Source: Anaeramoeba flamelloides
Taxonomy: Eukaryota > Metamonada > Anaeramoebidae
Length of the DNA: 64,000 nt
Assembly (NCBI GenBank): GCA_027625915.1
Contig: JANTQA010000036.1
Location: 5,911,001-5,975,000 of the forward strand
Direction: 5' to 3'
A model generated the notes under the pieces. The model saw only the letters and a list, made by a program, of their open reading frames with translations. It made no database searches and was not told the origin of the DNA. This document shows, one piece after another, positions 31,862 through 54,079 of this stretch (the stretch's first letter is position 1; each line of letters begins with the position of its first letter). The position numbers were made by a program, and so were the translations under genes.

Positions 31862-34800
31862 ATGAACCAAATGGACCTAAAAACAAGATTGTTTTGCAAT
31901 TTTAAAAGGTTTAAATCCAGTGAACAACCAGTTACCCACCTGAACATTCCGAAGAATTTAATTGGAAAATATGGAATGAAATATCTTAGTGAGGCCCTTC
32001 AAAGAAACCAAACAGTTACCCACTTGAATCTCAAATACAGCCAAATTAGAGACGAGGAAATGAAAGCTTTATGCAAATTACTCAATAGCTACCAAATCCT
32101 TACTGAATTGAATCTTTCTTGTAATGAAATTGGAGTCGAGGGAATAGAACTTTTAAGTGGTGTCCTTCAAACAAACCAAACTCTTACCGACTTGGATCTA
32201 TATGGTAATCGAATTGGAGCCGAGGGAATTAAATACCTTAGTTTAGCACTCAAGACAAACAAAGCACTTGCAAAATTGGGTCTTGGGAAAAATCAAATTA
32301 GGGACGAAGGAATGAAATCTCTAAGCGAAGCCCTAAAGACAAACCAAACCATTACCCACTTAAATTTATATAGTAATCAAATTGGAACCGAGGGAATGAA
32401 AGCACTCTTTGAAGCCTTAAAAGTCAATCAAACCCTTACCGACTTGAAAATTTCTGGTAATACCCTTGGAAAAGGGATAAGATCCTTAGGTCGATCCCTC
32501 ATAGTCAACCAAACCCAAACCGACTTGAATCTTAATGAAAAATCAATATGTGTAAATGAAGCAATTAAATCTTTAATTGAGGCCCTAAAGGCAAACCAAG
32601 CACTTACTGTATTGTATCTAGATGATAATCAAATTAGGGACGAAGGAATGAAATACTTAAGTGAGGCCCTAAAGACAAACCAAACACTTACCAAATTGGA
32701 TCTTGGTAGGAACCTAATTATGGACGAAGGAATTAAATCTTTGAGTGAGGCACTGAAAGTAAACCAAACCCTTACCAAATTGAATCTTTTTGCGAATCGA
32801 ATCCTCGCCAAAGTAATGAAATCTTTGAGTGAGGCACTAAAAGTCAATCAAACACTTACCCAATTAGGTCTTGGTGGGAACAAAATAGGGGCCCAGGCAA
32901 TGGAGTCTTTAAGCGAAGCGCTAAAAGTAAACCAAACCCTTACCGACTTGAATCTTTCTAATAATCAAATTAGAGCCGAAGCAATGGAATCTCTTATTGA
33001 GGCCCTAAAAGTAAACCAAACGGTTACTAACTTGAATCTTTGTCGGAATCGAATAGGAACCAGGGCAACCAAAGCTTTAGGTGAAGCGCTAAAAGTCAAC
33101 CAAACAGTTACCCACTTGAATTTATATAGTAATAAAATCGGAACCGAGGGAATGCAAAACTTAAGTGATTCTTTAAAAGTAAACCAAGCACTTACTAAAC
33201 TGAGTATTGGTAGGAACCAAATAGGGACCCAGGCAATGGAGTCTTTAAGCGAAGCGCTAAAAGTCAACCAAACCCTTATGGACTTGAATCTTTCTGAGAA
33301 TGAAATTGGATCTGAAGGAATCAAATATCTAAGTGAAGCACTAAATGAAAACAATTCAATTACCCAATTGGATCTTTCTTTTATTTATAATCAGTTATCT
33401 TATGGATATAAACAAGATCAAGAAATTGCTTTTCAAAAATTTATACCATCCTTAGAAATTAATACATCTATTATCAAATTATCTCTTGTGGGAAATATTA
33501 TTAATGAAAAAGATAAAATCAAAATGCAAAATTTAATTGAAAGAAATCTAAATTTTCAAAAAAAGTTAACTAAATCAGTCAAAGATGGAAATTTACAATT
33601 ATTCCAAGAATTAATTCAAATTGAGAAAATACCCTTAATATGCCAATCACCTTCTTCATATGGAATAGATAGCCCAAATAAACAAGAAGAAAACACAATT
33701 TTCCATACGGCTATTTCTCAGAATCAAACAGAATTTCTATTTTATTTGTTATTTGCAAATAATGAAAAAACAGATCAAGAAATTATTGAAAAAAGAAATC
33801 TTTTATTGAATTTCAAAAATCCAACAACAAAAAAAAGTGCAATTGATTTGTTAAATCCAAATGAAATTTTAATCCATGATTTTAAAAATTATTATAATCA
33901 ATTTATTTCAATTTCTTCTTCATCTTCATCATCTGTATCTTCTTCGTCATGTTTCAATAATACTAAATTATCAAATAATTTCCCAAATAAATTAATTGCA
34001 GAAGAAGAAATAATCTTGATGAGAATTGGGAAAGAATGGGAAACAATTAAAAATGAATTCAAAAATAAATTAACTCAAAAGCAAAAACAATTATTTTTAA
34101 AATGGTTATATATCCCTGTTTCTTTTAATTTTAAAGAAAAGCAAATAATTCTTGAAATTTTCAAATTCTTATATCTTTTTCAATTTGAGAAAAAGGAAAA
34201 GAACTCCTATAAGATTCAAAAAACAAATCAAATAATAATAATAAACAGCTTTCAGAATAAAGAAAATGGTGAGAAAAAAGAAGAAAAAGAAATAGAGAAA
34301 GAAGAAAAAGAAGAAAAACAAAAAGAAAAAGAAACGGGAATAACAGAAATCACCAAAACAGAAAATAAAACAGAGAACGAAAATGAAAATCAAGATAAGG
34401 AAGAAAAAAAAGAAACAGAAACAGAAACAGAAAAAGAAAAGGAAATTAAAAAAGGAAAATCTAATGATCTTAAAAATAATAATTATCAGAAAAATGATGA
34501 TCAGGAAAATGAAAAAGAAAAGGATAAAGTTAATCGAAAAAAAGAACAAGAAAAAAAAAAAGAAACTCAAATCAGGAAATATTTATTTTCAAATGAAAAA
34601 TTATTAAATGATTTCCAAAATTATATCAAAAAATATGAAAATTCTGAAAAAAAAGCTTTTCAAATCAACCTAAAAAAAAGAAAGAAGAAGAATGAAAATA
34701 AAAATAATTATTTTAAAATCAAATCAATTCAAATTAATAAATTTATTCTTTGTTTAAGATCAAATTTATTTCGAGATCTGATTTTAAACAGTTCTCCTTT

Positions 34801-34930
34801 ACAATTAGAAAAAGAAAAAGAAATCGAAAAAAAAAAAAAAAAAAAGGAAAAGGAAATGAAAAAAAAAAAAAAAAAAAGAAAAAGAAAAAGGAAAGGAAAA
34901 GGAAAAGGAAAAGGAAAGGAAAAGGGATGA
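31862..34930 (+). CDS. Leucine-rich-repeat protein, frame closes inside BTB-like tail
   Basis: An intronless frame of 1022 residues. Residues about 22-505 form some 17 leucine-rich repeats of 28 residues of the ribonuclease-inhibitor (RI) type, LxxLxLxxNxIxxEGMKxLSEALKxNQTLT, which bind proteins. About 540-660 is helical and ankyrin-like (NTIFHTAISQNQTEFLFYLL). A first BTB-like half follows (RIGKEWETIKNEFKNKLTQK, then FLKWLY), then a long Lys/Glu tract, then the start of a second BTB-like fold (IKSIQINKFILCLRSNLFRD). The frame then enters a run of A and G and stops at TGA 34928-34930. In the next frame the protein continues (see 34932-35528), so the real gene probably reaches 35528. The tail parallels that of the ankyrin protein at 25284. 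Adaptor function is inferred. The N-terminal start at 31862 follows a T-rich leader. Confidence 0.85.
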   Translation: MNQMDLKTRLFCNFKRFKSSEQPVTHLNIPKNLIGKYGMKYLSEALQRNQTVTHLNLKYSQIRDEEMKALCKLLNSYQILTELNLSCNEIGVEGIELLSGVLQTNQTLTDLDLYGNRIGAEGIKYLSLALKTNKALAKLGLGKNQIRDEGMKSLSEALKTNQTITHLNLYSNQIGTEGMKALFEALKVNQTLTDLKISGNTLGKGIRSLGRSLIVNQTQTDLNLNEKSICVNEAIKSLIEALKANQALTVLYLDDNQIRDEGMKYLSEALKTNQTLTKLDLGRNLIMDEGIKSLSEALKVNQTLTKLNLFANRILAKVMKSLSEALKVNQTLTQLGLGGNKIGAQAMESLSEALKVNQTLTDLNLSNNQIRAEAMESLIEALKVNQTVTNLNLCRNRIGTRATKALGEALKVNQTVTHLNLYSNKIGTEGMQNLSDSLKVNQALTKLSIGRNQIGTQAMESLSEALKVNQTLMDLNLSENEIGSEGIKYLSEALNENNSITQLDLSFIYNQLSYGYKQDQEIAFQKFIPSLEINTSIIKLSLVGNIINEKDKIKMQNLIERNLNFQKKLTKSVKDGNLQLFQELIQIEKIPLICQSPSSYGIDSPNKQEENTIFHTAISQNQTEFLFYLLFANNEKTDQEIIEKRNLLLNFKNPTTKKSAIDLLNPNEILIHDFKNYYNQFISISSSSSSSVSSSSCFNNTKLSNNFPNKLIAEEEIILMRIGKEWETIKNEFKNKLTQKQKQLFLKWLYIPVSFNFKEKQIILEIFKFLYLFQFEKKEKNSYKIQKTNQIIIINSFQNKENGEKKEEKEIEKEEKEEKQKEKETGITEITKTENKTENENENQDKEEKKETETETEKEKEIKKGKSNDLKNNNYQKNDDQENEKEKDKVNRKKEQEKKKETQIRKYLFSNEKLLNDFQNYIKKYENSEKKAFQINLKKRKKKNENKNNYFKIKSIQINKFILCLRSNLFRDLILNSSPLQLEKEKEIEKKKKKKEKEMKKKKKKRKRKRKGKGKGKGKEKG

Positions 34931-34975
34931 GGAAAAAGAAAAAGAAAAAGAAAAAGAAAAAGAAAAAAGAAAAAG
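34825..34975 (+). repeat. Purine-only microsatellite inside the LRR gene
   Basis: About 150 bases almost wholly of A and G (AAAAAG and GGAAAA units with homopolymers up to about 18 A) coding for Lys/Glu/Gly/Arg. Length changes here would shift the frame, and the flanking frames do differ by one base. Confidence 0.8.
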
Positions 34976-35528
34976 AAATCGATCAATTGACCAAGTTACT
35001 GATTATTTCTCTTCAATTTCTGAATTTTATCCATTTTTTCTCTCAGAATTTTATAATTTAAATTTATCATCATTTACTTTTACTTTTGATTTTGAGAACA
35101 AAAACTCAAATACCAACAATAACAATAACAACAAGAACAATATCCAAAAAATCAAAAGCGTTACAAGCAATACTGTCAATAAGAATAACAACCAGAAAAA
35201 TACTAATACTAACAATAACAAAAGGAAAAACAATAATGATATCAAAAAAATCAAAAAAAATAATAGTGGTAGTAATAGTGGTAATAATAATGATGATGAT
35301 ATTAATAATAATAAATCAACAACAAAATATACTTTTCTAAAATCAACAGAGAAATTAATCCTAACAACTGCAAAAGCAAAAACTATTTTAAAAACTTTTA
35401 ATCAGAATAATTTAAAAAATTTAATCAATTTCTTTTCAGCAAACGATGTTTCAGGTTTCTACCAAACAAATCCTCTCTTATTCTTTTATAATTTATTTAA
35501 TTTCTCAAAAAAAATATCAAAATTATAA
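34932..35528 (+). CDS. Probable C-terminal continuation of the LRR/BTB gene, +1 frame
   Basis: No ATG begins this frame, but it is open from the purine run to TAA at 35526-35528 (about 199 codons). It starts with Glu/Lys repeats and reaches VTDYFSSISEFYPFFLSEFY, which matches the second half of a BTB domain (compare NDYSGQTFDSMEIIIKHLYS in the ankyrin gene). An Asn/Lys-rich insert follows, and then a tail (KLILTTAKAKTILKTFNQNN). The first half of this BTB fold ends just before the purine run in the preceding frame. The frame change lies in homopolymer-rich sequence at about 34820-34925. It may be an assembly error, a real indel or, less likely, a small intron. Confidence 0.65.
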   Translation, partial: EKEKEKEKEKEKRKRNRSIDQVTDYFSSISEFYPFFLSEFYNLNLSSFTFTFDFENKNSNTNNNNNNKNNIQKIKSVTSNTVNKNNNQKNTNTNNNKRKNNNDIKKIKKNNSGSNSGNNNDDDINNNKSTTKYTFLKSTEKLILTTAKAKTILKTFNQNNLKNLINFFSANDVSGFYQTNPLLFFYNLFNFSKKISKL

Positions 35529-37173: not shown

Positions 37174-40100
37174 TTACATTTGGTCTACATACACTAGACC
37201 CACTGGAGAGTTAATTAAAATGTGTTTTTTAGTGTTTATAGTTTTTTGGGGAATTTTGGATTTTGGGGAATTTTCGGGAATATTTGATAGATTCTTTTTT
37301 TTTTGATTATTTTGAGGATTTTGTATGATAAACATAATATACCGATTTAATAAACGAGAAAATGATATTTTTTGAATAAATGTTGCTTTGGTTGTATACC
37401 ATCTAAGTAAAATAGTTGATAAATTGTTAATCCAAATGTTTTTATAACTGTTGATTACATTTTGGTTTTTGATTTTATATTTTTCATTATTTGATTGGTG
37501 ATTTACGGTAAATTGTTTAATATAATTGAAAAAGTTGAATAACTTTTTAGTATTGTTAATTGAACTACAATATTTTAAAATAATTAAAAAATTTGATTTA
37601 TTTTGAATTACTTTAATAAATTTTTTTTCATTATTTGAAAGATTTTTTTTTTTAATAACTCTCTTCTTCTTCTTATTATTATTACGATTGCCTTTAATAT
37701 TATCACCTGATGATAAAGATAATTTATTTTTTAGTTTCAATTTATTTCTGGCTTTAATTGTTGATTTAATTTCTATAATTACAATGACAAGCCACAAAAA
37801 TATACTTAGAGTCAAGAAAAAAATGATCAAATTTGCAACTATATCTTTTGTTTTCTCAGAACTATTTTTGAATTCCTCTGAAACAAAATAAAGCCCACAG
37901 AACAAAATAAATTCTGTAATTACCAGTAGAGAAAATTCCAAAAAGTTTCTAGGCGATGTGTTAAAGGGGTTACAATAGGATTGTATCAGAATTAAAAACA
38001 AGAAGAGTATAATAAAGATAATAATTTGGATATTTGGTGAATTTGACAGATAAAGAACAATGACCACAACAGTTATTTTTCGAAATGTAAGAACAAATTC
38101 CCAAAAGAACCATTCCTTTCTAAATTTGCTAGTTAATAAACCAAATCTTTGATTAAAGGTGTTTTCATCAACTTTTCTGGAATGGTAATATAAAGACCAC
38201 CCAAGAAATACTGGTATTCCGATAATATATAAGATTCCAAAAATAATTACAAATGGAAGCATTTTATACCACCATCCATCATAACAATTGTATTTTAGAT
38301 TGGCTTTCAAAGAATAAGAATAATTTTGAGAATTTGAATTCGAAATTTTGGCACAATCAAAAATTTCGAAAATTTTTAAACATAAAATCAAATACATTAA
38401 AAATATAAAGGCAACAAATGAATTTATACAATTATTCATAAAAACCTTCAAATCATTTTTATCCATCCCATTAACCCAAAATGAAAAATGATAATATTTT
38501 AAATATGTAAAGGGTTTTAAAAATTTGTTTTGTTGGTTTTTACTTGGTTTGATAAATAAATTAGGGAATTTATTCAGAAATTTTGGTCCAATTTTTTTGA
38601 CGATTTTGCTATGTAATAATATTAAATAATAAAAGCAAACAAAAAGCAATATTATAACAATTGGTAGTAGCATGATCAAAAACCATTTTTCTGTATAGCT
38701 TAAATTGAAAGAGCATTCCAAAGCAAGCATATCAATATTTAAATTGAAGAATGTGAAATTTTTAAAGAAATTTTGGATTTTGAATGGCCAATTAAAATAC
38801 ATTTTTGGGAATAAGACAATAATTTGGAAAAAGGACACCAAGATTGTTAGTGAACCAAAATAATTTTCACCTTTTTTGGCAATAAATATTAAGGCCAAAA
38901 CAAATATCAATAATAAAACGAAGGCAATGAACAATCGAGCCCAATTATTATCTGGGCAAATTAAGCATTGTTCTTCAAATTTATAAAACCCTTCCATGCA
39001 TTCCTCACATTTGATTCCTGTATACCCTAATTCATCATTGCACTTTTCAATTTCATTGCCAGGGCATGCGTCTTCAATTTTGCATTTAATTAAATCAAGT
39101 GGCGCTATTTTTGAACTCCAATATCCCTCTTTGGGGTTTGGATATTGTTGATTTAACTGATCGCAAATCCCGTTTTCGGGGCATTTTTCACAATTTTGCC
39201 CCGCTTCTCCATAATACCCCACTATACAAAAGCATTCCTTGGGATTAATGGTGTTCGTTGTTAGCGTTATGCTATGCATTGAACAATAATTGCACTCGCT
39301 AGACCGAGTTGTGGATTGCCAGGTATTGAATGGGCATGGCTGACATGTCATCGTCCCCGCTTGATCTTGATATTCTCCAGCGAGGCAATGTTTACAAAAG
39401 GTTTGCCCCTCGCGATTAGAATAGCTCCCCGCTTGGCAATCTAGACAAGTAGTTGAATTGCGATTATTATTATACTGGCCTTGGCTGCATAATTTACAAC
39501 TACTTGCTCCCTCTTGATCTGAATATGTACCAATTTCGCATTGAATACAATCGTTCTCAGAAGTTGATCCAAGTTTTGAATTATAAGATCCCGATAAACA
39601 TTTGTTACAGAAATTTTGCCCTTTATGATCTTGATATTCTCCCTTATCGCATTTTTGACATCCGGATTGACCCGTTTGATTAGTATAAGAACCAGTTTCA
39701 CATTCATGGCAACTATATTGTCTAGTTTGATCTTGATAATGGCCCACTAGACATTCTTGGCATTTGGGCTGATTTTCGTTGGAATTATAAAATCCTTTTT
39801 GGCAAGATAAGCAATCACCCATCGATGTTGCTCCTGGTTTATTGTTATACGTTCCTTTGGGGCAACCAAGACAATCGCTTTTTGATTTTGAACCCAGCTT
39901 TTCATTATAAGAGCCCTTCTCACATTTTTCACAAAAGCTTTGCCCTTTATGATCTTGATATTCTCCCTTATCGCATTTTTGACATTCAGATTGCCCTCTT
40001 TCGTCTGTATAAGAGCCGGTTTCACATTCACGGCAACTAGATTCTGCTGTTTCATTTTGATAATGGCCCACTTCACATGTTTGGCATTGGGATTGTCCCT

Positions 40101-43100
40101 CTGATTTTGCATAAGAACCCTTTTTGCAATCTGTGCATGTAGATAATCCTTTTTCATCTACATAATAGCCAATCTTGCATTTAAGGCATTCAGATTGACC
40201 TTTTTTATCTGCATAATATCCAGCTCCACATTTTTGGCAATAACTTTGTGCCGTTTCATTTTGGTAATTGCCCACTTCACATTCTTTACATCCGGATTGC
40301 CCCGGTTGTGATTGATAAAAACCTAAATCACATTCATGGCATTCCAATTGTCTAGTTTGATTTGCATAAGTCCCAGTTTCACATTCTAGGCATTTAGATT
40401 GATTTTCGTTGGAATTATAAAATCCTTTTTGGCAAGATAAGCAATCACCCATCGATGTTGCTCCTGGTTTATTGTTATACGTTCCTTTGGGGCAACCAAG
40501 ACAATCGCTTTTTGATTTTGAACCCAACATTTCATTATAAGAGCCCTTCTCACATTTTTCACAAAAGCTTTGCCCTTTATGATCTTGATATTCTCCCTTA
40601 TCGCATTTTTGACATTCAGATTGCCCCGTTTGATTTTGATAATGACCAGTTTCACATTCACGGCAACTAGATTGTGCTGTTTCATTTGCATAATGACCTA
40701 CTTCACATTCAAGGCAATCAGACTCCCCTGTTTGATTTTGATAATAACCTAAGCCACAATCAGAACATTCTGTGAGCCCACTTTTAGTATTAAATTCTCC
40801 AACATCACAAGTACTGCAAATATTGCTATTAACCTCTGTAGAATATTGCCCAGGTTGGCAGAATTCGCAAGAAGGTAACGAAGATCCAGGTAAGCAATCA
40901 CAATCTCCTGTTGCAAGGTTACAATTACCACCTTTATTACATTCATCACAATTCATTAAATTCATTCCATTCGCAAGAACACAAGATGGCCCGTCTGACT
41001 CGCTACCAGTGATTTCATTATTGACTATGTTATCGTATGTGGGTGCATTATTATTACTAATAATTAAATTTGAATATGTGATTTCTGGTTTGTCCGGACC
41101 TGGCCTTGTACATAGCAACCCAGATGATTTCAAAGTTGCATTATTGTTTTGAATTGTGACATTCTCAAAATATAAATTGCATCCAGAATTATAAATTGTT
41201 CCTATTTCGGCTACATTATTTGTAATATTACAATTAATAAATTGAACAAGTTTTGGATCATCATTTCTCTCACAGTCTAGATAAAATGGAATACCTTTTA
41301 TTTCATTGAAATATTTAACAAATAAATAAATATAAATATTATTATTATTATTATTATTATTATTGAACAAGTGTAAAATTATACTATTTATTTTTTCCTT
41401 AATAATACACACACTAAAAAGAAATAAAAGTACAAAAACATATATTAAGAATTATTGGTTCAGGGAAATAATTTCAAATTCTCTTTGGTTAATAAACAAT
41501 TGATTATTAACATTTTATTTGTTTTTTCTTTAATTTTGGGATATTGCAGCAATTTTAAACCTGGTGTACAAGAGTTTATAAATACAAAATTTTTGATTTA
41601 TAATCAAACTTTATTTAAAGATATGTAAATGAAAATATATGTTAAAGTAGTTTTAAAGTTCCAAAACCAATATTGTAAATAAATTCAAAAAAAAAAAACA
41701 AAAAAAAAAAAATTCAAAAACAAAAAATCGACTTTAGATACACTTAAAAAGGGAAAGGAAAGTAACTTTTGTTATTTATCCAGGATGATACTATGAAAGG
41801 TGGTGAGAAAATGACAAATAAGTTAAAATTTTTCCTATAAAAATTGATTAGCCAAACCAGATCATTTACAAAAATTAAAAAAAAAAACCTAAATTTGATA
41901 AATGAAGAAGATATGGTCACGAATCTCTCAGCTCAGCCCGATTTGGAGTTTATAAATATGTTATTCGACTCATTGTTTCAAAAATGAGAAAGATATTTTT
42001 CTTGATAGGGTGATATTTATATCACGGTATCAAGAAAAATATAATACTTATTTTCTCAAATTCATTTAAATAACCACAGCTAATTTTTTTTTTTTTGTTA
42101 GCAAAGCTATAAAAAATGACATAAAAATTACCCATTTCCAAGTAATATTTTATTGGTTATTTTTTGTCATTATTTTTCCTTATAGATCCTCACCACTTCA
42201 ACTATAAAATAATTCATGTTATTAGTACTAAAAGAAATATGAACTGTACATAAATTTTGGATCGAACTTAATTTTGGAATTAAAAAACTTTTTTTTTAAG
42301 TGACTAATCTCTATTAAATTTTTTTACCTAAATTTAATAGAGATTGAGAAAATTTTTTTCCAATTACTTAGATTTGAAAAACACCTGTTTATTTTCAATA
42401 TTAAACATATTTCTAGATAATAAATCCTTATTTAGAAATTGGTCAAAAATAAAAAAATAATAGAGACTAGTCCCTTAAAAAATCAAATTTTTATTTCTTA
42501 ATTGAAAAAAGGAAAAGAATTATTTCAAGGTGTTAAAATGTTTACAGATGACTTAATTTTAATAATGGCAGGATCAATGTTTGAAATAAATTATCAATTA
42601 CAAAAAATATATAAAATAATAAAAGATTTTGAAATGAATCCAAATGATGATAAAACAAAAAAAAAACCTAATACCAAAAGAAATTTTATATCTTGGTATT
42701 TGGTTAGACAAAAAAACTCATCTAAAATTTAACTTTGAAAAGGTCAATAATAATTTTGAAAAAGTCCTCCATATTTTTAAAGAAAGGAATTTTTCTAATG
42801 GGTTAAAAATTCAATTCTTTAAAGCCGTTTTACATAGTCAACTATTATATGGGTTGGAGATATTTGACTCTACAGAATCCGATTTCAAAAAAATTGATAT
42901 TGGGATTAATAAGAAAATCACAGAATCGCTTTTAATAAACCCACATTCCCCAAGACTTATCTATAAAACTGAAGCAAAAATTGATTTGGCAAGAATCACA
43001 ATTTACAAAAAGAAAATTCAAATTAATTCAAAAAATTAAAAATTTTGGGATTTGATAAATTAATAAATCTTCTCCCCCTTCAGAGAAAAAAGAAACAGAA

Positions 43101-46100
43101 AACATTAATTGGAAAGTTCGAAATTTAAAAGAATTAGAATCTGAACTCGAAGTTTACAGAATTAATCAATTAAAAAAATAGTCCAAGTTGGAGTACAAAA
43201 TTATTTGAAAATAATTTTGATACAGGGAAATATTAACAAACAGTCGTGTCTCGGTTTTTTTAATTTAAGAAATAAACCGAAAATTTATTAAAATTTTCTG
43301 TTTATTTCTTAAATTAAAAAAAACCTAACGACAAAAATATTTAAAATGGAAGGGTTCAACTTCTATTCTAAAGTTAAGAAATTATACAAATTATCTTAAT
43401 AGATATTCTTATTTTATGAACAAAAATAAATCACAATTTTGTCAATTGTGTAAAATAAATAAAGATTTGGATATCATTGAAGATTTGGATCATTTTCTCT
43501 GGAACTACCAAGCCTATGAAAATAATCGGAAAATCTGGATTTCTGAATTAGAAAAAAACAATTTTTCACTTATTTTAAATAATAATAATATTTATAATAT
43601 TATTAATAAACAAGATTCAATATCTTTATTAGCTCTAGTAGATAATAAGACTATGTTTGAATCTATTATACGATTTCTATATTCAAGTTTAGGAATTCGG
43701 GCAAACAAGAGGAATTCTAAACTCCTCCCTTAAATTACAATAAAAAAAAAATTCTTGATTTTAAAAATATATCACAAATTTTAACATTTTCAAAAAAAGA
43801 TAGAATGTAAATATTAACTATGAAATAGAAAACTTAAATTATGAGATATAAATCTAAATCAATTTGGGGGAAAGTAATAATACATATTTCTGGATGAAAA
43901 GGTAAAGAATCTTCTAAGGTTATTAGATATAATAATAATATAATCAATAGGTTTTTTTATAATGACATTTATATGATGGTTATTAAATATATTTTTTTAA
44001 TTAGGGTTTTGTAATTTTTTTTTTAGATAATCCTTAGTAAAAACTTTCAAATTTTTGAAATTTGAAATAAAATTAAAAGAATATTGGGAACTCAAATCTT
44101 TCATAATGGTAGTTTGAAATTTTGAAAATTTTTTTAATGCTCTTCACAATTTTTGTGATATTCTTGGCTCGATGGGGATTTTGATGAATTTGATCCAACA
44201 TCAAATACCTTTTCTTGCCTTTATCAAATTATATCCAGTATGAAAATGACAAAGAACAATTCCTCAATTATTTTTGATTGTTCTCACCCGTTTTCACCTT
44301 TGAGGAGTACATTTAAAAGTTATATCTCAAATCAAAAATAGAATCATAAAAAAATCACAGCAATGTCCCAGCGTTTTCAATTTTCACATAAGAAGAAATT
44401 TTCTCAAAAAGTAGATTTTTTCAGATCCTCTTTTCCCTTCTGTTGAGAAATCCAATTTTTCGGAAAATCTTTCATTTCTTCCTTCTTAGATATAACTAAA
44501 TAATTAGTTGTTGGGTTTAGCATCAAAGAATCCCTTGATTAAAATATCGTACATATTAAATTTGTATTACAAAAGTTGCCATTAAATGGCTGTAATATTC
44601 CAAAAATGAAAATCAATTAGATTGCAATTTAGTAATATTCTTTATGTTTACAAATGTAAACTATCATTCAAAATAATTGGCCCATCAAAAATCAAAATTT
44701 AAAGAAAAATATTTTTAATACTTGTAGTTATCTATTATAATATCAAAATTTTTATTTTAGTATTTGGTTCACTACTCAGGGGTATTTGTTTTTCTTCAAA
44801 AAATAAAATAAAAAAGTTAAAAAAAAAATTTAAAAAAAATTGGGACATTTATTTTGAATGAAGCATTACATGAAAAAAAATTTTTTTAAAAATTAATAAA
44901 ACCCATTTATCGATTCTCCTTCCCTTTGAATAACTAAATCTAATCTCTTTGTCATATTTGAAACCAATTTTTCCATTAATTCATCTGTTACTTCTTTCAA
45001 ATTTTTCATTTTCATTTTCCATTTTAACAAAACACTTTTGAAAAAATAAAAAAGAGAAAAAATGATTTATTTACAAACTTTTCATTGTGAGAGAAAAAAC
45101 TTAAAAACGATACAAAAGCAATTCAAAATTGAAATATAAGGTGGGCCATTTATTTTGAATTTTAGTTTATTTAGAAATTGGTTTGATTTGTTTCTGGGAT
45201 TTCTGGAAATAGAAAAAAAAAAAATTCGAATAGCGATTTGGAAAAAAAACGTGAAACATGATTTTTAATTGGTAAACTTAATAGAATCACAGAAATCACA
45301 GAAATCACAGAAATCACAGAAATCACAGAAACCTGAAAACGGAAAATTAAACCAATAAAAAGAAGAAATAAATTAATTTTTAAGAAATAATTCGATAGAT
45401 TATTCTTAACTGGGTCAAGAAACTCAATTTAGATCTACTTTTTTATTGGGAATTCAATTACAGTAAGCTTAATTTCAAAAATTGTGCAGATTTTTCATCA
45501 GAAAAAAATTAGTTTAATTGTGTTTTTTTTTGAATAATAAGGTATTTTATAATTTTTTTAGAGAGACAATAGTCAATATAGATTAATAAATAAAAATGTT
45601 GTATAATCATTGTATTTTTTGAAAGACAAATGAAAAAAGAAAAAAATAATAACAACAAAGTTTGCCCCTAATTTTGAAATTTGGCTTATATACAATAGCG
45701 CATGTTTTTTATTATTTAAAGGATTTGTATATTGTTTTGGAAAATTTGGAGACATATTTGTTGTTTTTTTGGATTTTGATTTGTGTGTGTTTGAAATAAT
45801 TGTGGGATTTTTTAAGATTCAAGTTCTTCTATACTTAAATGGTAATGTTTGAATTTTACTTTTTCGTGGGTGTTTTATATTATCAAAAGGGGATTTTTTT
45901 GAAATCAGAGAAGTTCTTAGATTGATAAAAAGGAAATTCTACAAAAATAATTGTTTTCTTTTTTATTTGGATTGTTTTTTTGAAATTTTTTAACAGATTT
46001 TTTTATAAAAGTTCATTTTTCAAAATAACGTTTCACCAATATGTGTGTTCAATTTTTTGATAAAATACAAAATAGGCAATTATTACAATACTTTAGAGTA

Positions 46101-49100
46101 AAAAAAAAATAAATGTTTACTATTGTTAAAATAATAATGCACGTATTTTTAATACCTAACGATAATTAAAAAATTTTTTTATAAAAAAAAATAAAGATTT
46201 GCTCATTTACCACTTTTTGATAACTTCACTTGTAATAAACAATAATGTTGGTTAATAAAAGATCTTGGATCAAAAATTATTTTTTTGAGATATTTAATAA
46301 TTTAAGTTGGACAATACCATTTTCCAGGTTCTATTAAGATTGTTTTCAAATTTAAGAGTAAAAAATTTGAATAATTTTTTTTCAGAGTTATGGAGTGTAA
46401 TATTATATTTTTATAAGAATTTTAAATTTAATAAATATCTTTCAAATGGATAATCACTTATTTGGGCTATTAAAGAATTATTTATTCTTTTAAATTGAAA
46501 AAAAAAATTTTTTTTTGATTTTCTGTCTGTTTTTTTTTAATTTATGTAAGAAACAGAAAATTTCATAAATTTTTGGTTTATTCTAAAAAGTAAAAAAAAA
46601 ATCGCCTTTAGCTTTCCAAAACTTAGAAGAAAATTTCAAAAATTTTATTTTTATTTTCCAGAGTTAAAAAAAGGTTTCCGTTAGGTTTTCTGTTTATTTG
46701 TGAAGTGTTATAGGTTTTTTTTACTTTTTGAAATAAACAGAAAATTTTAATAAATTTTCGGTTTATTTCAAAAAGTAAAAAAAACCTAACGAAAATAAAT
46801 AGATTTTCCAAATAAAATAGAAAACTTCAAAAAAACCTAGAAAACCTAGAAAACTTAACAAATAAAACAGAAAACCTCAAGAAAACCTAGACACTCTACG
46901 GACACTTTTCGTTAGGTTTCCCAGAATTCAAAAGAATAGAGAAAAAACAAAGATTTTACTCAATTCTTATGAATTCTGGAAAACCTAGGCACTTGACCGA
47001 CACTTTCGTTGGGTTTTTTTTTTTACTTTTTGTTTTGATTAGAAAATCAATAGATTTTCCAAACAAAAATAAAAATATAAAAAAAAAACCTAGGCACTCT
47101 ATGGAAATTACCTGACACTTACGTTTGGTTTTCCAGAATTCAAAAGAATTGAGTAAAATCAAAGAGATTTTACTTGATTTTTTTAAATCCTGGAAAACAA
47201 CCCGACACGTAATATTAATCACAAGGAATTTTTTTTATCTATTTCAGTTTTATTAGATGAGTATAGCATTTTTAAAGCTATTGGTTATTATCAATTCAAG
47301 TAAATATCTCCAAGTTGAATTAAACAAAAATTCATTGTCACATCCATTTAAAATTTTTTACCCCCAAAATAGACTTTTTTTTTCTTGGCTTGAGACTTTT
47401 TAAAGAACTTTGAACTCCTTGCAACAATAAATACAGCACCCCTCAAGATTTTTAAGTACTCGAATGTGGATTGTATTGTGGTTAAACTTTATTAACAGGA
47501 TGAAATGGTAATTGAATTAATATTTTAGTCTTTAATTATTTATTTTTTGATCTTACTTAATTTTCGTTTTCAGGTTCCTTTGGTGAATGTGATTCCAGTG
47601 GTTTTTGTGATTTCTGTGATTCTATAAAGGTTTCCAATTAAAAATGTGTATTTAACTTTTTTTTCCGTTTTACTTTTGTTGCAAATGGTATTTCTTTTTG
47701 GAATTTCTTTCAAATAATCTTGTAATTAAATTATGGAACACTTCTTTTTTAATGAGCCTAAGAGATCAACCGAAAGGTTCAACAAAATAAGATGTTTTTC
47801 GATTTGATTTTTGGGTTGAAAAAAAACGAAAAAAGTACCAACATGAAAAAAAAAAAAAAAAATAGAGAAAAAGTAAAACAAAGAGTACAAACCCCAGCTA
47901 TTTTGCATTAACACAGGATTAAAATTTTGAATTGTGAATCCATTGATAGTGAAATTGTTCTTTTGGATAGTAAAACCCCTCATTATATCACATGACTCAC
48001 CATCAATTATCGTTTCTTCTTCAGGATAAGAAGTTGCAAGCAAAGTTAAATCTTCTTGTGGTTTAATTTCTTCAGCAAAATTGTAAGTTCCTGGGCCAAC
48101 ACAGACAGTGTCTCCAGCTATAAACCAATTGAAAAGTGAAAAAAGGAAAAGTTTTTGAATTTTTGTTTTTTTTAAAAGAGTAAAAAGTTATATAATAAAC
48201 CTTTGAGAAATACTTTTTCTAAAAGTGATTGAAAAAATAAAGATCTCAATAGAATCTGGAAAAGGGATCAACAAAAAACTTTAAAACAGGAAATTTTCAT
48301 TATTAAGACTCTGAGTATATTTTGGTTTGTATTACTTTTACACATGTGCAAAAAGTGATGTCTTAATATTTTAAGTTTTTTTACTAAATTTGTCATTTTT
48401 CTCAAAAACTACAAAACTTTTCCAACTGCACCCCGGATAGTAGAGGTTTCTTTTAAAGTGTACTTGGGGATTCTAATAGCAAAAAAAACAATTTAAGGAA
48501 AGAATAAAAAAGTTTGGGGTTGTTTTTGTGTTTTGATTTCTGAAAATTATTTTCGATTTTTAAATTTCTATTTCTTCCCCAAACATTTTTGTTCTATTAT
48601 AAAATAGAATTTTTTGCTATTAGAATCCCCAAGTACACTTAAAAAAAAACCTCTTCCATGGGGACGAATTTGGAAAAGTTTAAGGGTTATCTAAAAAAAG
48701 ACCACTATTGACTTCATATGGATTAAAACATGGGCGAAATGTGTTCTTTATTTCTTGGTAACCAGAAGAAAGATCTAATTTCAAAAATTTAGGAATTGGT
48801 AATTTAGATAGATCAGTTTCTTATTCGCAAACTTATTACTGAAAACCACAACCCAACCATGATCGTTCTAACTTTCATTTTTCAGAGCTAAAAATCGATT
48901 GTAAGACAATACTTCAATTAGAACGATCATGGTTGGGTTGTGTACATTAAATTTATCGAAATGAAATTTTTTCTTTGTCATTTTAAAAAAAATTTAAAAT
49001 GAAAAGGGAAAAAGTTAGATGTGATTTGTTTTTTATTTGTCATTCATTTTCATTATTTGTTTTTCTCATTGGCTAAGAGGATTTTTTTGTTTTTTTTTCA

Positions 49101-51187
49101 TCTTTTTATTTTTTTCTTATTTTCTTATTTTTATTTTCTTTTTATTCGATAAAAGAAATATTCAAGACACTAAATTAAATCCCCAAACCAATAGCCAACA
49201 AACAATTTCAAAGAACCGCAGCAGAACGCTGTGTTAGAAAGTTTTCAAAACTGCAACCCAAAATTCCCAAAAATTACAAAACAAAAACAATCAAATGATC
49301 CACAACAAAAAAAAGTCCAGAAAAAACTCACAAGTCTCTACATTATATTCCACTAATGACTTGCACATACCTGCAAAAAACTGAACTTCCAATATTCTTA
49401 GAATGGAAGTGTACATTTATTATTAAAATTACAAAAAATACTTGGTTTTCACCCAAATACTATTCTCTAATATAGTTAAAAAAATCTTAAAGGGATTCTT
49501 TTCCTTTTTTTTATAAATAAACTTTTTTCTTTTTTTTTTTTTTACTTGTTTTCTTTTTGTTTTTTTTTTTGTAAAAAAATTTTTTATGTGTTCTTTTCGA
49601 CAAAAAAAACACCTTTTTGTTGGAAACGATGAAATCAAATATCGTCAATTTGGCTTTGAAAAGAAAAAACAATTTCTTTTTCATTTGTTTGGGGTTGCTA
49701 AAAATTAGATGCGATGAAAAAATGACAAAAGAATTTGAACATTCAAAAAATGTTTTTGTCTTTGAAATTTTGCAAAAAAATTCTGAAAAATTTTGCATTT
49801 TAGGTTTCTCGTTAATTGAAAAAGATAAAGAGTCTAAAGCTGTGATGTTTAAACCCACGTTACCCCCAAAATGGCCTTTTTTTAGATAGTCCTTAAGATT
49901 TTTTGAGAAAAATGATAAATTTAGTAAAAAAACTTAAAATATTAAGACATCACTTTTTGCATAGGTGTATTTGAATTCTAAATAGGAGAAAATTTCACTT
50001 GATTTTCCATATTTTTCTTTTATAAATTAAGTCCCCAAACGGGGTGTGTTGGTATTTGTGGTCTCTATTTGAAGAAAGAAAGGTGTTAATGAAGAAAATA
50101 TTTTCACTTTACAGTGATCAAAATAAAGCGTGCCAACAACTATAATCCGTGTTTCAAAATATAATCCGTGTTTTTTTTTATTCTTGTACCAAGGCAACAT
50201 CCAATCTACTACCAAATAGTGTACTTAAGTTCAAATCAATTTTGAAAGTAAAGGTCTGGTTATTTTCAGTAAAATTTAAATTATTCATGCAAATAGTTGA
50301 AAATTTTCCATACCATTCTCAATTTTTACGAAATATTTTGTTTTTTTTATGATTAAAATTTTCTTGAAAAATTTTCTCTATTTTTTGAGATAAATTTTAC
50401 AATTTGATCCTTCATTTTTAGAATTTATTATTAAATAATAGAACTTTAAGAAACCAATACCAAATTTAGTTAGTGTTTATTATTGGTTTCTTTGATTGGT
50501 TAATGTATAGGTCTTCTATAACAAAAAAACACGCTTTTTATTTTTAAACACGCATTAAATTTTTTTGCACGCTTTATTTTGACTACAGTATTTTCCATTT
50601 CCTTTTAAATCTTAGACTTTAAGAAATTTAGTTCTCAAAGAAGTAGTGGGTTGTAATTCGTAGTTTCTATTTGAAAAAGAAAAATGTCTGGAAATGAAAG
50701 TGAAAATTATTCCTATTTAGAATTCAAATACCAGAATTTGTTGAAAATTTTGGGAAACAAAAGAGAGTACTGATAAACTGCAATTTAAGGTAGGAAATTT
50801 TTACTTGATTTTCCTTTTTGAAATTATTCTGATCAAGCTTTGAATAAAGCATTTTATGTGGTCAAGTGTTAAGAAACTGTAAAATTAGTTGTTGTTCAAC
50901 ATATTCTTTGTTGTAGACTTTTTGATAAGAAACAGTTTGAAGATTTATAAAAATGGAAACTGAACTAAAAATTTTTTGAAATTTATTAGAATTAATCAGT
51001 ATTAATTACCTGTAGAAACACCAACAGCAAATAAAATCGTTAAGCAAGCATTTTCCGCTGTTTCACAAGATCCTTCATCTGTTCCTTCAACTTTCACATA
51101 CCTCTGACAATCCAAGAATACTTTGTTTGTTAAAACTAAGACCAAAATTAAGAAAACATAAGAACTCTTCAGGATAATAGTTTTCAT
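37174..51187 (-). CDS. Three-exon beta-helix/Cys-rich repeat/multipass membrane protein
   Basis: I join three exons: 51187-51010, 48117-47893 and 41294-37174, 4524 nt in all, 1507 residues. Both junctions keep frame with GT-AG borders and restore a continuous beta-helix (NFNPVLMQNSW then GIPFYLDC). Parts: a signal peptide (1-26); a pectin-lyase-like right-handed beta-helix (about 30-230; GFTIQKNNFTINGFTIQNF); roughly 15-20 GCC2/GCC3 (ephrin-receptor-like) Cys-rich units (about 235-850; CxxCxxGxY); a Cys-rich EGF-like knot to about 905; about nine hydrophobic spans (about 918-1313); and a Lys/Asn-rich cytoplasmic tail. The membrane block (WWYKMLPFVIIFGILYIIGI; EFVLTFRKITVVVIVLY) is the type found after such repeats in other protists and is vaguely TRP-channel-like. 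Sensing or adhesion is inferred. A 630-base internal duplication covers about 39771-40705. The 41412 ATG is not the true start; it lies in intron sequence. Confidence 0.85.
39771..40705 (-). repeat. 630-base tandem duplication within the Cys-rich coding array
   Basis: 39771-40075 and 40401-40705 are almost the same at DNA level, offset by exactly 630 bases (210 codons), so the frame is kept. Near-identity including silent sites implies a recent copy or gene conversion between units. Confidence 0.85.
41995..42040. repeat. 46-base palindrome
   Basis: ATTTTTCTTGATAGGGTGAT and its near-complement ATCACGGTATCAAGAAAAAT meet at the centre ATTTAT. It is a tight hairpin with no loop to speak of. Confidence 0.8.
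42296..42360. repeat. Short hairpin AATCTCTATTAAATTT
   Basis: AATCTCTATTAAATTT at about 42306 is mirrored by AAATTTAATAGAGATT at about 42331. It lies just before the LINE remnant. Confidence 0.7.
42490..43790 (+). mobile_element. Broken LINE-type (non-LTR) retrotransposon remnant
   Basis: Only the end of a reverse transcriptase and what follows remains, antisense to the host gene. At 42538 MFTDDLILIMAG is the catalytic Y/F-x-DD motif of non-LTR reverse transcriptases. In the next frame, from about 42680, YLGIWLDKKTHLKFNFEKV and LLYGLEIF give the thumb-region motifs that follow it. After 43416 a Cys/His motif (FCQLCKINKDLDIIEDLDHF) recalls the C-terminal zinc knuckle of LINEs, with one expected Cys replaced. 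Two frame breaks and a palindrome inserted at 43250-43331 show that it is dead. No poly-A tail or 5' part is recognised. Confidence 0.75.
43250..43331. repeat. 82-bp palindrome, CGTTAGGTTTTTTTT family, copy 2
   Basis: Arms TCGGTTTTTTTAATTTAAGA and TCTTAAATTAAAAAAAACCT surround a core with AAATAAACCGAAAATT. It sits between two LINE fragments, so it appears to have arrived by insertion. Confidence 0.85.
44663..45162 (-). mobile_element. 500-bp MITE, TTCAAAATAAATGGCC family, copy 2
   Basis: Ends: ATTCAAAATAATTGGCCCAT (left) and its inverse around 45141-45160 (GTGGGCCATTTATTTTGAAT). The whole element matches 60853-61368 in reverse orientation. There is an extra internal end-like motif at 44838. 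No coding frame. Confidence 0.75.
45286..45334. repeat. 9-base minisatellite (AAATCACAG)n
   Basis: Five to six exact units of AAATCACAG. A short inverted counterpart (TGTGATTTCTGTGATTC) occurs at 47607-47624, inside the matching opposite arm. Confidence 0.85.
45466..45686 (+). mobile_element. 221-bp MITE, AGCTTAATTTCAAAA family, copy 2
   Basis: Same termini and length as 24441-24662, flanked by TA at 45464-45465 and 45687-45688. Non-coding. Confidence 0.8.
46529..46602. repeat. Palindrome, CGTTAGGTTTTTTTT family, copy 3 (decayed)
   Basis: T-run, TAAGAAACAGAAAATTT, centre ATAAA, then GGTTTATTCTAAAAAGTAAA and an A-run. Arms are less perfect than in the other copies. Confidence 0.65.
46707..46791. 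repeat. 85-bp palindrome, CGTTAGGTTTTTTTT family, copy 4
   Basis: Arms ACTTTTTGAAATAAACAG and CGGTTTATTTCAAAAAGT, bounded by TAGG/CCTAACG, centred on ATTTTAATAAATTTT. The arm sequence differs from copies 1 and 2, yet pairing is kept. Confidence 0.85.
46914..46986. repeat. Palindrome with CAGAATTC arms, copy 1
   Basis: AGGTTTCCCAGAATTCAAAA is mirrored by TATGAATTCTGGAAAACCT. A second unit is at 47127-47202, and half units flank the 20521 palindrome. Confidence 0.75.
47127..47202. repeat. Palindrome with CAGAATTC arms, copy 2
   Basis: GGTTTTCCAGAATTCAAAAG pairs with the inverse near 47180-47202 (AAATCCTGGAAAAC). The inner part GAGTAAAATC/GATTTTACTT also pairs. Confidence 0.75.
48414..48681. 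mobile_element. 268-bp foldback inserted in the mariner-like TIR
   Basis: The arms pair over about 75 bases, for example GTGTACTTGGGGATTCTAAT with ATTAGAATCCCCAAGTACAC. The mariner-like arm continues on each side of it (CTCAAAAA before, TAAGGGTTATCTAAAAAAAG after), matching the intact right arm, so this element came later. Confidence 0.8.
48848..48941. repeat. 94-bp foldback with 23-base perfect arms
   Basis: ACAACCCAACCATGATCGTT at 48848 is mirrored by AACGATCATGGTTGGGTTGT ending at 48941, with a loop of about 48 bases. Confidence 0.9.
50112..50588 (+). mobile_element. 477-bp MITE, CAGTGATCAAAATAA family, copy 1
   Basis: Left end CAGTGATCAAAATAAAGCG, right end (inverted) CTGTAGTCAAAATAAAGCG, each flanked by TA. 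Nearly identical to 52462-52944. The AACACGCTTTTTATTTT sub-terminal block is also shared by all copies. A Tc1/mariner-type parent is inferred. Confidence 0.9.
50775..50997. repeat. Inverted-repeat arm next to exon 1, arm 1
   Basis: An inverted copy of about 53058-53280, including GACCACATAAAATGCTTTAT and CTTCAAACTGTTTCTTATCA on the opposite strand. It ends 12 bases before the donor site of exon 1. Confidence 0.7.
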
Positions 51188-52461
51188 TCTTTTTTAAAAA
51201 AAATGAAATCTAATAACTATTCTAAGAAAAATTCCGAAAAAGTTTCTGAATAAAATTTTCAAGTTGTTATATGTTGTAATGTTATTATTAAAAGAAATTT
51301 TGTGAAAATTAATTTATTACCAATTCGAATTTCGGATCAGGGTTTTGAAAATAAATCATTTCTTGAATTTGATAAAATTGAAATAACAAAGTGGAAAAAA
51401 GGAACTTTCTTTTCAAGGGGGAAGATTAGGGACTTTAAATATTTGAAAATAAATATACGTTTCGAAAAAAATTTTACAGAAATCAATTGACAAATACAAG
51501 AGAATGGTAAAAAAAATCTTTTGTTTTGAAGAAACAGATTACAATGATGAAATTGTTTGAACAAGAAGAGGCTATTCAACGTTTACCAACATTAGTCAAT
51601 TTTCGATTTACTTTTTGTCATTAAAAAAAAAGTTTAAATGTTGAAAATTTTTTATGTTTCAAATTTGGTCAAAAAAGAATGTAACTTATTGTGAAATGTT
51701 GTTTATAAAAGATCAGAAATAATCTTTTGGACAAAATTCAAAATAATTTTCCAAAACTTGCTTTTTAAGCTGTGTGTTAATTTAATCAGAAACTTTTCCA
51801 AAATTACCATCAGATTTCCTGAATCTTGAGATTTATTGCTTTTTTATTTGACCTTATGATAATTGAAACAAGATTACTTTTCAAAAGTAAACAATTAATT
51901 TTTAAAAAATTTTGTTGTGCAAAGCCTATTTCCAACAAAATATTTGCATTCGATTTCTGAAATGTGGAAAAGATGTAGGTTCTGTTAAAATAGATTTTAC
52001 AATTAATCTGCTGATTATTCTCTTTTCTCATATTTATTGAATAAAAAATGGGAAAAATATTTAAAAAGTTTTTTGGTTATTCTTTTTTTTCTGAAGAGAG
52101 ATCCGTAATAAGATTTGAATTTCTTAAAACCCAATGGTTTTGAGCTGGTCTGGAATATTTTATAATACCTATTTGTGTGTATAGGGTTTACTAATGGTAT
52201 CCTATATAAATTGAAATTTTCCAAATTTAAAAAAGATAAAAGCAAAATTTTAGTCCATAAATTCTCAAAATACTAGTAGAGAGATTCCGAAACACTAATA
52301 ACCCATAAAAGAATTGAATTTGAAATGAAAATTTATTGGAATAAAAAGTAAAGGCTATTAACCATTAGCAGGAAAAGTCGACTTTTCAAATCTTTGTGGA
52401 ATATTCAGAATACAGTGTCAAAATATACTATATTTGCTACTAAAAAATAAATTTATTTGTA

Positions 52462-52944
52462 CAGTGATCAAAATAATGAGTTCCCAACAACTATAATCCG
52501 TGTTTCAAAATATAATCCGTGTTTTTTTTTATTCTTGTACCAAGGCAACATCCAATCTACTAACAAATAGTATACACGAGCCCAAATCAATTTTGAAAGT
52601 AAAGGTCTGGTTATTTTCAGTAAAATTTAAATTATTCATGCAAATAGTTGAAAATTTTCCATACCATTCTCAATTTTTTTGAAAAATTTTTTTGTTTTTT
52701 TGATGATTAAAAATTTTCTTGTAAAAATTTACTCTATTTTTTGAGATAAATTTTGCAATTTGATCCTTTATTTTTAGAATTTCTTTTTATATAATAGAAC
52801 TTTAAGAAATCAATACCATATTTATTTAGGTTTTATTATTGGTTTCTTTGATTGGTCAATTTATAGGTCTTCTATAACAAAAAAACACGCTTTTTATTTT
52901 GAAACACGCATTAAATTTTTTTGCACGCTTTATTTTGACTACAG
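52462..52944 (+). mobile_element. 483-bp MITE, CAGTGATCAAAATAA family, copy 2
   Basis: Flanked by TA on both sides, in the same orientation as copy 1, with only scattered differences, so among the youngest insertions here. Non-coding. Confidence 0.9.
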
Positions 52945-53057
52945 TAGACCAAAAAGAGTGTTACTGTTGTAGTCAAGAATATTGTTAAAAATATAAAATT
53001 TTGGTTTTTTTTTCACAACTATTTGGTTTTGTAAGCCAATTTTGAGAAGAAGTTTGG

Positions 53058-53280
53058 TACATACTGATAAATTCTAAAAAATTTCAAAAAAATTTTTTGT
53101 ACAGTTTCCATTTTTATAAATCTTCAAACTGTTTCTTATCAAATAGTCTCTTGGCAGGAAAAAGAATATTTTGAAGAACAGCACCTTTTTTAGAGTTACT
53201 TAACATTTGACCACATAAAATGCTTTATACTAAGTTGAGAATAAAAATTTCCAAACATAAATTGCATTTTATCAATATTT
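53058..53280. repeat. Inverted-repeat arm upstream of exon 1, arm 2
   Basis: The opposite arm to 50775-50997; together they enclose exon 1 and copy 2 of the MITE. The arms differ at scattered sites, so the duplication is not very recent. Confidence 0.7.
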
Positions 53281-53556
53281 AACATCTTTGTCATTTTTAA
53301 TTGTAGTTCATTCAATAATGCTTCAAAAAATTGAATTTGTTCCCTTTTTCTTTTTCGTGTTTCGCGAACCTGTAACCTTACTTGTTGAATTTTCTTTTTT
53401 GAGAAATTTTGCTCTTGATGAGATCTTTAAATTAATAATATTTATTGTTGGTTTGTGTATTTGTTTTCTTTTTGAGAAAAATTTTTCTACTTGTCTACTC
53501 CCACATGAGGCTATGGTCATATAAAAGACACCTTTAAAATTTATATTCACTTCTGT

Positions 53557-54027
53557 AGTGATCAAAATAATGTTAGCTTAACAAATAATATCGATACTTC
53601 AAAATAAAATTTGTGTGCTTTTTTTTCTCATGTTTCCATTGGAACATCCAATCAACTTCCAAATAGTATACCTAAGTTCAAATCAATTTTGAAAGTAAAA
53701 ATCTGGATATTTAAAGTAAAATTTAGATTAGGAATGCAATCTGTTGAAAATTTTCCATAAATCTTCAATTTTTTTGAAATTTTTTGTTTTTCTGATTAAA
53801 ATTTAATCCCAAAATTTACTTTATTTTCTAAGATTAATTTTGCAATTTGATCCTTTATTTTTATATTTTCTTTTTAAATAATAGAGCTTTAAGAAACCAA
53901 TACTATTTTTGTTTGTGGTTTATTATTGAATTCTTTTCTAGATTAATCTATAGGTCTCGTAATAAAAAAAAACGCTTTATTTTGAAACATGGATTAAACT
54001 TTTCAACATGTATTCTTTTGACAACAG
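53557..54027 (+). mobile_element. 470-bp MITE, CAGTGATCAAAATAA family, copy 3
   Basis: TAGTGATCAAAATAATG at the left, GACAACAG at the right; the interior is aligned with copies 1 and 2 but clearly more diverged. Confidence 0.75.
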
Positions 54028-54079
54028 CATATTTATTTTTAGAGATAATTCTCAAAGAAAATGAACTTTAAAAGAAATA

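Follow-up and report, generated by a model that had tools for sequence, protein, structure and literature searches.

A receptor-like gene of Anaeramoeba flamelloides with two old introns very probably enlarged by mobile DNA

A receptor-like gene on the minus strand of the DNA analysed here very probably consists of three exons separated by old spliceosomal introns, which were enlarged by mobile DNA after this copy had separated from its paralogs. The DNA, hereafter the window, is a stretch of 64,000 nt (bases 5911001-5975000 of contig C37; 26% G+C) from an assembly of 254,072,379 bases in 76 contigs. We propose that both introns predate this gene copy and would have grown once it had parted from its relatives. 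TA-flanked inverted-repeat elements would have landed in intron 1, some adjoining or inside each other, and a 5'-truncated LINE and other repeats would have landed in intron 2, while the intron ends with their splice signals would have stayed put.

Exon structure and its conservation in paralogs

The three exons, all on the minus strand, measure 178 nt (exon 1, 51010..51187), 225 nt (exon 2, 47893..48117) and 4121 nt (exon 3, 37174..41294). Their sum, 4524 nt, is a multiple of three and encodes a 1507-aa frame with no internal stop. Exon 1 carries a start that by eye is hydrophobic and signal-peptide-like, followed by the first portion of an N-terminal part read from the sequence as beta-helix-like, and ends in phase 1. 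Exon 2 continues the beta-helix-like part, and exon 3 holds the rest of it together with Ephrin_rec_like repeats, a membrane domain and the stop codon. Intron 1 (48118..51009, minus strand; 2892 nt) and intron 2 (41295..47892, minus strand; 6598 nt) both have GT-AG borders, and splicing of the three exons restores one frame. On the window's minus strand, however, 17 of the 129 segments of the form AG-225nt-GT are also open in the needed phase, so that an open three-exon join alone is weak support.

The decisive test came from the paralogs. When the genome was searched with the first 283 aa of the joined protein, 41 scored candidates yielded 30 pieces: ten match exon 1 or exon 2, and 20 contain the exon-3 part (the window's own included). 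The pieces of the close relatives end at the same residues as the window's exons. In four paralogs, C24a, C24b, C19 and C51, exons 1, 2 and 3 follow one another along a single contig; their introns occupy both phase-1 sites of the window's gene, and their spliced N-terminal frames are open as far as they were read. The exon 1 boundary is the same in all four and the exon 2 boundaries are matched, the window's donor lying about three codons further on. Since the paralogs share both sites, the exon junctions proposed in the original prediction, with their GT-AG borders and joined length, are confirmed. For a fifth close relative, C51b, this search recovered the exon-3 piece alone.

The second junction can be followed beyond the close relatives. 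Of 18 loci, window included, 17 carry a phase-1 AG at the homologous codon, the exception being L031, which has no AG at the place tested; the second intron is common to nearly all examined family members. The remaining two of the 20 loci, C26 and C1, have neither intron and an undivided N-terminal part; further downstream, they look different by eye. Five matches to U2 snRNA in the genome exceed the gathering score. Judged by these sequence comparisons, both introns are of the ordinary spliceosomal kind, lie in phase 1 and predate this gene copy. We also noted an AATGA/CATGA-like motif about 12-24 nt before the junction-2 acceptor in the window (within 41295-41330) and in L010, L012, L013, L015 and L020, which is a possible branch-point signal.

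Conservation of the N-terminal block in relatives had been suggested as a check on the model, and the block is indeed conserved. Using our own script for the Nei-Gojobori method, we obtained dN/dS values between the window and the four paralogs of 0.42-0.54 over the first 290 aa and 0.41-0.52 over exons 1-2. The pair C24a and C24b gave 0.40 over exons 1-2 and 0.82 over the 290 aa, and family constraint is therefore not strong everywhere.

An unlikely alternative is that the gene recently turned into a pseudogene, its weak second donor having ceased to splice. The intron 2 donor of the window reads GTTTGT, by eye the sole in-phase GT at this position, as against GTAAGG, GTAAGA or GTAAAG in the paralogs, and the membrane-domain region is interrupted by stops or splits in two of the relatives (C24b and C51b). 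Yet the window's gene keeps 1507 codons with no stop, its N-terminal 290 aa show the dN/dS range given above against four paralogs, and its membrane domain is 82-83% identical to those of three paralogs that have no stops there.

Very unlikely is a second alternative, in which exons 1-2 do not belong with exon 3, the two being separate remnants or genes, and the true gene is intronless with a start near 41412. The exon 3 frame does remain open upstream to 41451, with a GTG at 41412, but this upstream stretch is a low-complexity asparagine/isoleucine run, and the frame stops within 20 residues in 15 of 18 loci, the window being one of the three exceptions. Against this alternative also speak the nearly invariant junction-2 AG, the conservation of exons 1-2 beside exon 3 in four paralogs (dN/dS <0.53) and the two intronless family members, in which the N-terminal part is in one piece. 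The three-exon structure is thus well supported on comparative grounds, and both introns would presumably be removed from RNA in cells. The other long ORFs of the window and their Pfam hits are compatible with the claim that its remaining genes lack introns.

Inserted elements in the two introns

Intron 1 can be decomposed completely. It consists of an old intron of 270 nt and three TA-flanked insertions of 230, 759 and 1627 nt, each counted with one TA (270+232+761+1629=2892). The old intron survives on the minus strand as its first 10 nt (GTAATTAATA, 51000..51009), a middle piece of 39 nt (50729..50767) and a 3' part (48118..48338), the last 183 nt of which are 82% identical to the 258-nt intron of C24b. 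Over its whole length, the residual 270 nt is 78%, 77% and 67% identical to the introns of C24b, C24a and C19, respectively. Intron 1 measures 258 nt in both C24a and C24b, 278 nt in C19 and about 7 kb in C51. The old intron differs by about 22% between the window and C24b, against 0.37 at synonymous sites; it thus seems to diverge less than synonymous sites do, which base composition or the gapped alignment could explain.

Insertion 1 (50770..50999) starts 10 nt inside the donor, has CTGAT...ATCAG ends, a terminal inverted repeat of only about 5 nt and TA on both sides; C24a preserves its empty TA site. Insertion 2 (49970..50728) is bounded by the terminal inverted repeat TTTGAATTCTAAATAGGA with TA on both sides, its arms of 55 nt matching at 80%. 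Insertion 3 (48341..49967), likewise with TA on both sides, has terminal inverted repeats of about 68 nt, the arms matching at 96% over 70 nt when the TA is included. Insertions 2 and 3 have a common TA, and therefore one landed at the other's edge. From their TA sites, all three would be Tc1/mariner-like MITEs. Two open frames inside insertion 3 gave no Pfam match.

Further elements are nested within these insertions. Insertion 2 contains an inverted-repeat element of about 0.48 kb (50110..50590) with 97-nt arms that are 73% complementary, and insertion 3 a multicopy sequence of about 1.2 kb (48679..49896) found by genome search. With the whole of intron 1 as the query and 40 of 10,385 candidates scored, so that copy numbers are lower bounds, we found at least 24 copies of the former elsewhere (87-94% identity) and at least 13 near-full copies of the latter (87-95% among those scored). 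The same search also matched DNA just upstream of the gene (G000:C37:5963444-5965033, window 52444-54033). By comparison with the paralog introns, enlargement of intron 1 by transposons is shown at the level of sequence.

Intron 2 presents a similar outline, with ends homologous to those of the paralogs and a repeat-rich middle. It measures 6598 nt in the window, 3255 nt in C24a and 1380 nt in C24b, and from coordinates about 4.9 kb in C51 and 6.8 kb in C19. Near its 5' end (47724..47872, minus strand), about 130-150 nt align with both C24 paralogs at 68-70% identity, and near its 3' end (41328..41541, minus strand) 187-217 nt align at 68-71%.

Its middle contains what is probably a 5'-truncated LINE copy (42538..43751, plus strand) that lies antisense to the gene and has an FTDD motif, identified by eye, which we take to be a reverse-transcriptase motif, and an A-rich 3' end. 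Scans of two pieces of the copy gave no Pfam reverse-transcriptase match. Among 40 scored of 18,851 candidates, the copy is mostly 96-97% identical to others, many of which have the same 3' end, and a further genome search gave at least 150 matches (150 of 4917 candidates scored). A foldback of about 90 nt (43243..43332) lies inside the copy. Of the 39 other scored copies, 13 extend across this foldback as well, and 26 lack it (L044, for example). Because those 13 share it, the foldback probably came with the LINE, as part of a subfamily to judge from the aligned copies, and a separate landing in the LINE within this gene is improbable. The transposon content originally predicted for the introns is confirmed: they hold elements with inverted repeats, foldbacks and a probable LINE fragment.

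Least likely of all is the reading in which the introns were born from transposons by introner-like gain, rather than enlarged by them: both are largely repeat and intronless relatives exist, but the element-free 270-nt intron can be aligned over its full length with three paralog introns (258, 258 and 278 nt) in which these elements are missing, the elements lie inside intron 1 and not at its borders, and junction 2 is common to distant family members. For the elements seen in intron 1, birth of the introner type is excluded by the match of the residual 270-nt intron to the paralogs.

Intron lengths in the genome and related systems

At base level, the paralog comparison bears out the reading of a receptor-like gene interrupted by two introns packed with transposons. 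The accompanying view, that introns of this kind are exceptional for a compact protist gene, did not hold: the genome, at 254 Mb, is not compact, and gaps of 1-6.6 kb are frequent in genes of two unrelated families used as controls, CCT/TCP-1 and ammonium transporter, for which we measured gaps between matched pieces as putative introns. Scoring of 82 of 152 candidates for CCT/TCP-1 gave 109 pieces and 62 neighbouring pairs, 42 of them consecutive within 8 profile positions; the 20 looser pairs were excluded from the gap counts. The 42 strict gaps range from 129 to 4588 nt (median 486), with 17 of at least 1 kb, ten of at least 2.5 kb and none of at least 6 kb, and at one junction the gap varies from 210 to 4367 nt. 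At one junction of the ammonium transporters, 26 gaps have a median of 4.2 kb, of which 22 are at least 2.5 kb and three at least 6 kb, measured with up to about 25 profile positions missing, where a small exon might be hidden. This family has 59 matching pieces in the genome, and four genes have the searched domain in one piece, as do each of nine intact copies of RPL3, of which there is also one broken copy.

Given these control-family gap lengths, the window's intron 1 is ordinary here and its intron 2 lies at the long end; intron 2, at 6598 nt, exceeds all 42 strict CCT gaps. At the two intron sites, the paralogs of this gene themselves show lengths between 258 nt and about 7 kb. A tentative generalization, which we put somewhat below an even chance, is that introns throughout the lineage have been swollen to several kb by nested TA-targeting elements and LINEs, with paralogs keeping the pre-insertion state. 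If so, intron growth could be traced insertion by insertion in this probably metamonad group, which is usually known for few, short introns. In a limited collection of literature, taken without supplements, we found no paper joining at least three of Metamonada, long introns, transposable elements and Anaeramoeba.

A parallel exists in carrot, where MITEs cause intron length polymorphism (PMC5422474). The reported carrot introns resemble those of the window in that inverted-repeat elements lie inside an older intron with exons and splice sites kept; the present case differs in concerning a protist, with several nested elements per intron and paralogs that give the empty state. Passages of a paper on Anaeramoeba nuclear genomes report more than 1100 ribosomal protein genes and an expansion of ammonium transporters (PMC11550330). 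The RPL3 and ammonium-transporter counts obtained here agree with what has been published on Anaeramoeba flamelloides. The genome examined here is likewise A+T-rich, with GT-AG introns, many ribosomal protein genes and the ammonium-transporter expansion; those passages do not treat intron length or nuclear transposons.

The gene offers a clean case of an intron of about 270 nt that would have reached 2.9 kb through insertions that can be counted, with its splice ends unmoved. Moreover, even without RNA, paralogs can lend base-level support to a long-spanning gene model in a protist genome rich in A+T, as this gene illustrates. For annotation it is also a warning, as intron limits set too short would break genes into fragments in such genomes.

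The predicted protein, its family and neighbouring sequences

The N-terminal 283 aa matched nothing above the Pfam cut-offs, the beta-helix not being recognised there. Downstream, Ephrin_rec_like (PF07699) matches 17 stretches (E 2.8e-73), cysteine repeats that the protein has in common with Ephrin_rec_like/GCC2-GCC3 proteins. It differs from them in combining a beta-helix-like N-terminus with a C-terminal multi-pass membrane domain.

The membrane domain (37753..38949, minus strand) weakly resembles Pfam TRP (PF06011), the profile match extending over much of the domain. Unlike the TRP membrane proteins, however, the window's domain scores below the cut-off (20.5 bits against 28.5; 19.3 for the whole ORF), and a PDB profile search returned two chance-level designed helical proteins and no meaningful relative. 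Among aligned family members, 8 of 11 matched Pfam TRP at E up to 1, the best at 2.4e-5. A single-sequence structure prediction of the domain reached a pLDDT of 52 and was unusable. Across the genome, scoring of 104 of 121 candidates gave 89 pieces that match the domain at E up to 0.001, with two pieces from some of the genes. Stops in the membrane domain or a split of it were seen in C51b (L065, C51:177328-178525) and C24b (L067, C24:6958236-6959433), which look broken.

Taken with its family, the gene is probably a functional member of an expanded receptor-like family, its transposon-enlarged introns being ordinary for the genome. From the domain layout, the protein would be displayed on the cell surface, where it may sense or bind something.

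Several other observations were made in the window and beyond it. No Rfam match and, with ARAGORN, no tRNA was found in the whole window. A coding stretch at 7001-9000 has 47-53% G+C, compared with 26% for the window, and belongs to a 1083-aa ORF with a glycine-rich part, for which Pfam gave no convincing match. At 34860-35525, an open frame with no Pfam match overlaps the end of an LRR gene (31862-34930) and continues in another frame across a lysine/glutamate-rich repeat; the gene may therefore extend beyond the ORF assigned to it. Finally, an arbitrary pattern of 13 specified bases matched ten times within C13:182498-642658 (L005-L008 among the matches), which suggests a clustered repeat family.
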